Of a stretch of DNA of 64,000 nt, positions 29,134 through 41,474 are shown piece by piece. This stretch comes from Halobaculum saliterrae (GTDB taxonomy: Archaea > Halobacteriota > Halobacteria > Halobacteriales > Haloferacaceae): contig NZ_WUUS01000002.1 of the NCBI RefSeq assembly GCF_009831625.1, positions 372,001-436,000 on the forward strand, in the 5' to 3' direction. Below the pieces are notes generated by a model. That model worked only from the letters and a program-made list of their open reading frames with translations. It was not told the DNA's origin and did no database searches. Position 1 is the first letter of the stretch; each line of letters starts with the position of its first letter. The translations under genes were made by a program, and so were the position numbers.

Positions 29134-30023
29134 CAGACCGTCACCTCGCGTTCACGGACCACCCCGCCAGTCTCGACGATCGCGGCCAACTCGCCGTAAC
29201 AGGAGAGTTGGTCGCAGCTGTCGTCGTAGTCCCGAAGCGGCAGTCCCGCGTCGTTGGCGTCGTCGATGGCCGATCGATACCGGATCCCGGGCAGCGGCCC
29301 GTCGTATGACCCGTCGTCGATGGCCGCCCAGTCGTCCTCGGATATCCGGCAGAAGTTCGGAACGACGGAGTCGGCGATCCCCATCGAGTTGATCTCCTCA
29401 AGCAGCGCACGGTCCCGGCGATCCTGATCCAGCCGCTGTGACAGTCCCGACGGGACGACCGCGAGGATGTCCAGCTCGAAGTACTGCCGTGCCTCCTTGA
29501 CCAGTCGATTGACGGTGTTGTAAATGCCGGAATCGTACCCGGTCTCCGGACGCACGGGAATGATCAGGTTGTTGGTCGCGTACAGGGCGTTCTCGTTGAG
29601 TTTCCCCTGGTTCGCGGGGCAGTCGACGACGATGTAGTCGTACTCGTCGCCGAGAAGGGGTTCGACGACGCGGGCATCCAGCCTCGTCGATCCGCCCATC
29701 GCGTTCTTCAACTGGGTCTGGACGTCCTCGAGGTCCCGATGCGCCGGGAGCAGGTCGAGCCCGTCGACGACGGAGACGATCGCCTCTGTCGGATCCCCGT
29801 CGTCGAGGAGTACCTCATGGACGTGGTTCGTCTCGGCCTCGTACTGTTCGGTGAAGCCGAGATTCTGTGTCATGTGTCCGTTGTCGTCGAGGTCGATGAC
29901 CAGGGCGGACTCGTTCCTGTGTGCCAGTTCGCGCGCGAGGTTTATCGCCGTCGTCGTCTTCGCGAATCCGCCCTTGAGGACGCCGACCGCGACGGCACGC
30001 GGTTGTGTGTCGTGTTCGGACAT
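29133..30023 (-). CDS. parA: ParA/Soj-family partition ATPase
   Basis: 296 aa. It has a deviant Walker A LKGGFAKTTTAINLA (KGGxxKT, about 17-23), Walker A' LVIDLDDNGHMTQNLGF, and Walker B-like YDYIVVDCPANQGKLNENAL, all as in ParA ATPases that segregate low-copy replicons. It lacks an N-terminal helix-turn-helix, so it is of the short type (Ib-like). It is the first gene of a two-gene partition operon; an inverted repeat and a field of short repeats lie just upstream, likely operator and centromere. Confidence 0.92.
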   Translation of the reverse strand: MSEHDTQPRAVAVGVLKGGFAKTTTAINLARELAHRNESALVIDLDDNGHMTQNLGFTEQYEAETNHVHEVLLDDGDPTEAIVSVVDGLDLLPAHRDLEDVQTQLKNAMGGSTRLDARVVEPLLGDEYDYIVVDCPANQGKLNENALYATNNLIIPVRPETGYDSGIYNTVNRLVKEARQYFELDILAVVPSGLSQRLDQDRRDRALLEEINSMGIADSVVPNFCRISEDDWAAIDDGSYDGPLPGIRYRSAIDDANDAGLPLRDYDDSCDQLSCYGELAAIVETGGVVREREVTV

Positions 30024-38471: not shown

Positions 38472-38853
38472 ACGTCACCCTTGGACCTCCTCCTACCTGT
38501 TGGTTTCCGTGGATCGGCAGTGAGTCGGCACGCTCTCAGGTCGCAGGCTAGCGACACCACGATGTCCGGAGTACGAACGAACCACCTCTAGCGATCTGAT
38601 CACCACAGTGTAGAGCCGGGGGCGCAGTCACGACCGGTGGGGGATCACACCACCGTGTCCGCTGTTACTGTATACCGATGGCGAGAACGGCGGACGGAGT
38701 GGTGTTTTTTCGAGAGGGGTTCGACCGAGGAACCCGGGACAGGTTATCACAGAATACCACGGTGAAGAGTATCGAGACCGTCGGAAGCAACCGTTATCGT
38801 GTCCGACAAGGGATCTCAGCACGCCCTCGTTCGGACGGAGACGAGAGACGACA
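38472..38853. other. left part of the origin-like region
   Basis: No gene seen. One copy of the 17-bp box (CCACCGTGTCCGCTGTT) lies at 38650-38666, 204 bp before the first unit of the tandem array (38854), which equals six 34-bp periods. Readings through it are by-products of the repeats. Confidence 0.5.
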
Positions 38854-39108
38854 CCATCGTGTCCGCTGTTCGACCGTGTCATCGTCCCCACCGTGTCCGC
38901 CGTTTGTCCGGATCTTCGACTCCACCGTGTCCGCCGTTCGATCGGGTCGTCGACACCACCGTGTCCGCCGTTTGCCCGGGTCTTCGACTCCACCGTGTCC
39001 GCCGTTCGATCGGGTCGTCGACTCCACCGTGTCCGCCGTTTGTCCAGGTCGTCGACTCCACGGTGTCCGCCGTTTACCCGGGTCGTCGACCCCATCGAAT
39101 CCATCGTT
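38854..39108 (+). repeat. 34-bp-period array of 17-bp origin boxes
   Basis: The box CCACCGTGTCCGCCGTT (first copy CCATCGTGTCCGCTGTT) begins at 38854, 38888, 38922, 38956, 38990, 39024 and 39058, exactly every 34 bp. A degenerate eighth copy starts at 39092. The 17-bp spacers alternate between a CGATCGG type and a TGTCCGG type over the first six units, so the higher-order unit is 68 bp. All copies face the same way. The array lies 3' of the minus-strand orc1/cdc6 gene. The even 34-bp spacing, close to three helical turns, fits cooperative binding of an initiator. I take it as one arm of a replication origin. Confidence 0.85.
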
Positions 39109-39311
39109 ATAGTCGTTCGAGTCGGGACAGCCGGATTCGATTGGACACCAGCTCGTCCGCCGTTGTTGGGCACGGGTCCCCTTGGGGAGCAGCAGGTCTG
39201 ACTACGAGTGATGGACTCAGAGAGAGGTAGGATCTAGATTTAGGTTCGTAGTGTATATCGTTACGGGAGGCGTTCTATCACCGAAATCAGGGACGCCTGA
39301 CTATAGTCAAG

Positions 39312-40618: not shown

Positions 40619-41474
40619 CCACCGTGTCCGCAGCGTCCGCTGTTTCCGCTGTTCCGACGTTACTTAAATACTTCTTAAAGGCCCGTGATCACACACCCAC
40701 CCCACCATGTCCGCAGTTGTTGAGATCGAAGCCGGGGGAGGGGGCGTCGGAGCCTTAATAAATAGAAATATTTAATACCTATCTGTGAGAGCTAGTCCGT
40801 ACGACAACCTAGTAGTATCATTTGGTTTGGCAGAAGTAGATTGAGAGCGAGCGAACACGACCGATTCGGGGATCCCTCGATCTTTCTCTCGGAAGTTACG
40901 GCAAAGAACTCCGCGACACGGTCGACCCGTCCGTTCTCTCACTCGAACAGCGGACATAGTGGGGGGAGGGTGTTCGAGTGGCTTCGACTGTGAACAACTC
41001 TTCCAGATGACGTGAGAACGCCGATATCGTCTGTTGCTTTCCCACCCAGCCTTCGAACCTCCGAGAGAACACCACCATGTCCGCTGTTCTCCCGACACGA
41101 CAGCCGATAGAACAGCGGACATAGTGGTGTGTTCTTCGCAACGTCCGCCGCAGTCCGATGGTTCTCCGGTGTCTCGGTCGAACGTTGATGCGGCATCTAG
41201 TGTCCGATTCGAACACCACCGTGTCCGCAGCTATACTCCAGCTTCCACTGAGTCCGGGGGCCTGATCGTCTCGATCCGCCCATCAGTCGAGTCTCGATCG
41301 GAGTTGGCACCAATCTCGGTGGATCCGGAACGACTGAGAGGTGTGGACCGTGAAATCGATCCGACGTGTTCGTATGGAACTGCGGACATCGTGGGGTCTC
41401 TGTGAACTCCTCCCCGGCTTCCTCAGTCGAACAGAGTTTCGATCACGGAACCCCAGTTACTGCGGACATTGTGG
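40619..41474. repeat. mixed-orientation origin boxes upstream of orc1
   Basis: Copies of the 17-bp box (CCACCRTGTCCGCWGTT-like) occur at 40619-40635 (+), 40702-40718 (+), 40946-40962 (-), 41072-41088 (+), 41111-41127 (-), 41216-41232 (+), 41378-41394 (-) and 41458-41474 (-). Two (41072 and 41111) form an inverted pair 22 bp apart. Between them are AT-rich stretches (40660-40680 and 40755-40800, e.g. TTAATAAATAGAAATATTTAATA) suitable as an unwinding element. The 1-kb region has no credible gene. This is the most likely replication origin proper. Confidence 0.82.

Follow-up and report, generated by a model that had tools for sequence, protein, structure and literature searches.

The window, as we call the whole stretch of 64,000 nucleotides analyzed here, comes from Halobaculum saliterrae and carries an orc1/cdc6 initiator gene with copies of a 17-bp origin box (ORB) on both of its flanks (Table 1). 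The nearest solved structure to the predicted protein is 2v1u. No other Orc-family gene was found on its 454,224-bp contig, and the 24 kb around it are homologous to Halobaculum plasmids. In same-genus genomes the gene lies on contigs of 250–487 kb, whose lengths and coordinates correspond to Halobaculum plasmid records. Since the contig combines one Orc gene with homology to these plasmids, the comparison places the window on a Halobaculum megaplasmid of ~454 kb. No clear origin signal was seen at the locus in the GC or keto skew of the contig. A ParA-like ATPase (PF13614; window 29484–29999, C2:401484–401999) lies ~9 kb from the array described below and is possibly a partition gene of the megaplasmid.

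Table 1 Features around the initiator gene, in window coordinates.
Feature	Coordinates	Strand	Basis or description
Intergenic region downstream of orc, holds the array	38472..39311	.	11 boxes (≤2 mismatches) in the 900 bp after the stop codon
Lone perfect ORB downstream of orc (CCACCGTGTCCGCTGTT)	38650..38666	+	Box search
Tandem ORB array	38854..39108	+	Seven 17-bp boxes, then a degenerate one; period exactly 34 bp
orc1/cdc6 initiator gene, 422 aa	39312..40580	-	TIGR02928 (441 bits); AAA, Cdc6 lid and Cdc6_C winged helix
ORB merged with 9-bp repeat, immediately before the orc start	40619..40655	+	Kept in 8/8 Halobaculum loci compared
Left ORB of inverted pair around AT-rich region	40702..40718	+	Box search, Halobaculum comparison
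Putative unwinding region	40719..40945	.	AT-rich; holds conserved TAGTCCGTA element
Right ORB of inverted pair, conserved G-string (GTGGGGGGAG)	40946..40962	-	Box search, Halobaculum comparison
Convergent ORB pair 41072 (+) / 41111 (-), starts 39 bp apart	41072..41127	.	Conserved in Halobaculum
Outer upstream ORBs 41216 (+), 41378 (-), 41458 (-)	41216..41474	.	Box search

Downstream of the gene, the box CCACCGTGTCCGCCGTT begins at positions 38854, 38888, 38922, 38956, 38990, 39024, and 39058 of the plus strand, a step of exactly 34 bp each time, and the eighth, degenerate box follows at 39092. Five of the seven boxes are identical; relative to the array consensus, box 1 carries two changes and box 7 one. 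The array is the top-scoring tandem repeat that Tandem Repeats Finder reports in the window (7.2 copies and a score of 324 at period 34; 3.6 copies, 88% match and a score of 366 at period 68). The box starts and the repeat search thus bear out the initial annotation, which had described seven boxes every 34 bp plus a degenerate one within 38854–39108, and the range is correct with the eighth box included. It had also described spacers alternating between CGATCGG and TGTCCGG types in a 68-bp super-unit. The alternation holds for spacers 1–6, and the super-unit spans the first six units; spacer 7 departs from it, beginning TACCCGG rather than with the CGATCGG type. Outside this range there are more boxes, one at 38650 and eight within 40619–41474. 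The array is GC-rich (34–36% AT), and its boxes lack the extended G-string (ACTCCACC context), so their affinity for Orc is possibly lower.

Across the window we found 30 box matches with up to three mismatches, compared with 6.0 ± 2.3 in dinucleotide shuffles, an enrichment far beyond chance. The 3.78-Mb genome holds eight exact matches, all clustered about the adjacent Orc gene at no more than 2.5 kb from each other. Of 382 class-level genomes, 98 encode an Orc closely related to this one. We compared the flanks of 88 Orc loci, the window included, counting boxes at up to two mismatches. The median was seven boxes upstream (within 1300 bp) and three downstream (within 900 bp), where mononucleotide shuffles gave an expectation of ~0.02 per downstream flank; inside the Orc genes of all 88 loci there was one match in total. 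Nearly all orthologs have ORBs on either side of the gene. The orc flanks of pHH400 from Haloarcula hispanica contain nine matching boxes, six upstream and three downstream. Because the box recurs on the Orc flanks of these 88 loci and of pHH400, we identify it by comparison as the ORB of the adjacent Orc1/Cdc6 family and its copies as putative binding sites, which supports the earlier proposal that they are origin boxes for the adjacent Orc.

The same comparison assigns the locus to the oriP family. The pHH400 oriP-cdc6K pair replicates autonomously (PMC3528665), and in H. hispanica neither oriP nor cdc6K could be deleted, so that the pair is experimentally essential (PMC3936714). The window Orc is orthologous to the pHH400 protein (75% identity over 416 aa). 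Both genes are flanked on both sides by the same ORB and belong to megaplasmids of similar size, with a single Orc gene and Halobaculum plasmid homology on the 454,224-bp contig studied here, and inverted ORBs at 40702 (+) and 40946 (-) enclose an AT-rich stretch, as expected of this type of origin. The downstream sides differ: pHH400 has only three downstream ORBs, with starts 57–67 bp apart and no tandem array.

Upstream of orc, AT content reaches 58–66% at 40750–40849, against ~40% around it. In an alignment of eight Halobaculum loci the conserved islands on this side are the ORBs themselves, with the inverted pair ~190–244 bp apart and the convergent pair ~38–48 bp apart. Judging from this conservation, the origin core is likely to lie upstream of orc, at 40619–41474, and the array itself is probably not the core. 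Downstream, identity to the window falls to 39–53%, compared with 48–58% upstream, and the sister loci hold 1–7 irregularly spaced boxes and lack the array. Since this side aligns less well and its boxes are irregular in the sisters, the array belongs to the variable accessory side of the locus rather than to its conserved core. The 11 downstream boxes of the window compare with a median of three in the 88 orthologous loci.

The array carries marks of its own history. Its 17-bp spacers resemble one another, sharing 10–16 of 17 positions, and the spacer most similar to a given one is often two places away, a pattern that duplication of a 68-bp unit would produce. Minor states number 3 over the box columns and 20 over the spacer columns (column shuffle P = 0.004). 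Spacers that are repeated but diverging, beside boxes that stay intact, indicate tandem duplication, after which selection kept the boxes while the spacers drifted. Other classes of repeat or element fit poorly. A CRISPR array would have unique spacers, whereas these repeat one another; no Rfam match to a structured RNA was obtained at the array; and a coding repeat is disfavored by a period not divisible by three and by H. halobium, which has no annotated CDS between orc and the next gene. A viral origin was also considered, and of 14 pattern matches in viral contigs none came with a match to the window Orc in the DNA examined. We found no DNA-level relatives of the array in plasmids.

Dense downstream clusters of this box occur in two more lineages. 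Tandem Repeats Finder was also applied to 164 further loci near Orc genes, the genome that holds the window being counted separately, and showed an array of the box only in L090 and L241, which are the same locus, from an uncultured haloarchaeon. This array resembles that of the window in its Orc family (74%), box, side, and orientation, and it too is a tandem repeat with conserved boxes. It differs in having eight boxes, a period of 39 bp (38–41), and spacers, themselves repeated, that are unrelated to those of the window. It is absent from the congener L180, so an independent origin is likely. The other cluster, at L238, has eleven downstream boxes in the same orientation, several of them 45–46 bp apart, with unrelated spacers. 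The exact 34-bp period is therefore, as far as these loci go, not conserved across lineages, and the array is best described as a known kind of downstream ORB cluster in a lineage-specific and exactly periodic form. Tandem repeats of ~55 bp (L278 2771–2960) and 31/62 bp (L273 1189–1378) were also noted beside other Halobaculum Orc genes.

The known cluster is oriC2D of H. hispanica, in which 11 ORBs lie within 722 bp downstream of cdc6E and show no origin activity (PMC3936714); it also runs counter to the initial statement that haloarchaeal ORBs are usually fewer. oriC2D lowers the level of an oriC2 plasmid, a construct with two of its ORBs has an intermediate effect, and it can be deleted only together with oriC2 (PMC3936714). 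Its authors infer that oriC2D titrates Cdc6E and propose a wide occurrence of this strategy (PMC3936714; PMC4010727). In both oriC2D and the window, many ORBs follow the cognate orc/cdc6 gene directly on its downstream side, with an active origin upstream in the former and the likely core upstream in the latter. Their density is comparable by the published description, 11 ORBs in 722 bp against 11 boxes in 900 bp. The two loci differ in that oriC2D belongs to a different Orc and to a main chromosome and has an experimentally tested function; in the window, seven boxes form an exact 34-bp tandem array. Initiator sites grouped into clusters able to restrain initiation are also known from E. coli datA, a comparison drawn in PMC4010727, and in the iterons of bacterial plasmids. 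We use these as a working analogy only, since their initiators (DnaA and Rep) are unrelated and there is no homology. The seven boxes at 34 bp do match iterons in being regular, directly repeated initiator sites, but the initiator beside them is an Orc1/Cdc6 protein rather than one of Rep type.

Given its position relative to gene and origin and its number of boxes, both like those of oriC2D, titration is the best-supported mechanism for the array, although at the level of sequence handcuffing would look the same. We think it probable, with room for doubt, that the array is a tandemly duplicated ORB cluster that titrates Orc, with an oriP-type core upstream. In such a scheme, expansion of a 34/68-bp unit in this lineage would have produced a tandem cluster of ORBs downstream of orc; these would bind Orc and act as an initiator sink; and by competing for Orc with the upstream core they would hold initiation down and thereby keep megaplasmid copy number low. 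Orc binding, titration, and the effect on copy number are inferred here by analogy with oriC2D, and the copy-number role raised in the initial annotation is plausible by comparison. The scheme bears on a wider question, as the case for initiator titration in archaeal control of initiation is built mainly on a single tested locus. This Orc family forms a natural series, with one initiator, one box, and 0 to 11 downstream boxes depending on the species, and it includes at least two tandem arrays, probably of independent origin. With such a series one can ask whether the number of ORBs or their spacing sets megaplasmid copy number.

The extra boxes might instead have no regulatory effect, the array being a neutral minisatellite that caught an ORB. 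Its absence from all sister species and the repetition among its spacers would fit, as would the ORB-free tandem repeats found near several other Orc genes (29 bp × 4.2 at L196; 26 bp × 3.0 at L183). However, we consider neutrality unlikely, given box columns far more conserved than the spacers, two more lineages in which this box forms dense clusters of matching side and orientation, and a family in which downstream ORBs are common. If the boxes do act, the 34-bp geometry might be functionally required, through iteron-like handcuffing or a cooperative Orc filament; the initial annotation had taken the exact spacing to imply a filament on one DNA face. H. halobium has a single 34-bp-spaced pair on the same flank, and the array has no indels despite ~20 minor-state differences in its spacers, which is weak evidence for a length constraint. 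At 10.5 bp per turn, though, 34 bp makes 3.24 turns of B-DNA, not an integral number, and the other clusters, at 39 bp (also 38 and 41) and 45–46 bp, make 3.71 and ~4.3 turns, so that same-face helical phasing does not follow from the spacing. No period was significant among the downstream same-strand spacings (p = 0.14 over the scan); a series of 23, 34, and 45 bp, which looks like an 11.3-bp step, was not significant either. The exact period can be explained without protein geometry, since the spacers are themselves repeats. Handcuffing or a filament is thus improbable in our estimation, and we give equally little credence to the more specific proposal that the 34-bp spacing was selected so that Orc forms a phased multimer on the array, a switch-like archaeal counterpart of iteron copy-number control. 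If it were true, 34 bp would represent three turns underwound to ~11.3 bp per turn.

Two further readings give the array other roles. As part of an active origin or as an enhancer, it would load extra Orc and stimulate initiation, and the ORBs that flank the gene on either side in nearly all orthologs are compatible with this. We nevertheless find a stimulatory role hard to credit. The downstream cluster of H. hispanica is inhibitory (PMC3936714), the architecture conserved in Halobaculum, inverted ORBs around an AT-rich region, is upstream, and the array is GC-rich. The last reading makes the array the partition site, or centromere, of a ParA-type system rather than a site for Orc. Plasmid centromeres are often short tandem repeats, and the ParA-like ATPase lies on the same contig, but the array box is that of the upstream core and tracks the Orc gene across species, and no ParA was among the neighboring genes tested, at 34.8–47.3 kb. 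A centromere therefore seems to us very improbable, and titration by a duplicated ORB cluster remains our preferred interpretation.

The upstream flank showed several minor features. The promoter-proximal ORB and a 9-bp tandem repeat (TGTCCGCAG/CGTCCGCTG/TTTCCGCTG) overlap in each of the eight Halobaculum loci; this conserved overlap suggests autoregulation of orc, and the element is a probable promoter or autoregulatory site. Of 88 orthologs, 54 have the 9-bp element TAGTCCGTA (window ~40793–40801; matches of at least 8/9) at 185–221 bp upstream of orc, compared with 5 of 517 control segments. Its distance to the orc start is nearly fixed and it falls within the AT-rich region; TCCG is common to this element and the ORB core, and it may represent a mini-ORB or an unwinding element. 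Finally, the upstream convergent ORB pairs of the 88 orthologs fall into two distance classes, ~35–41 and 45–50 bp, with none at 42–44 bp. The classes lie about one helical turn apart, in a comparison from which shared ancestry of the sites was only partly removed.
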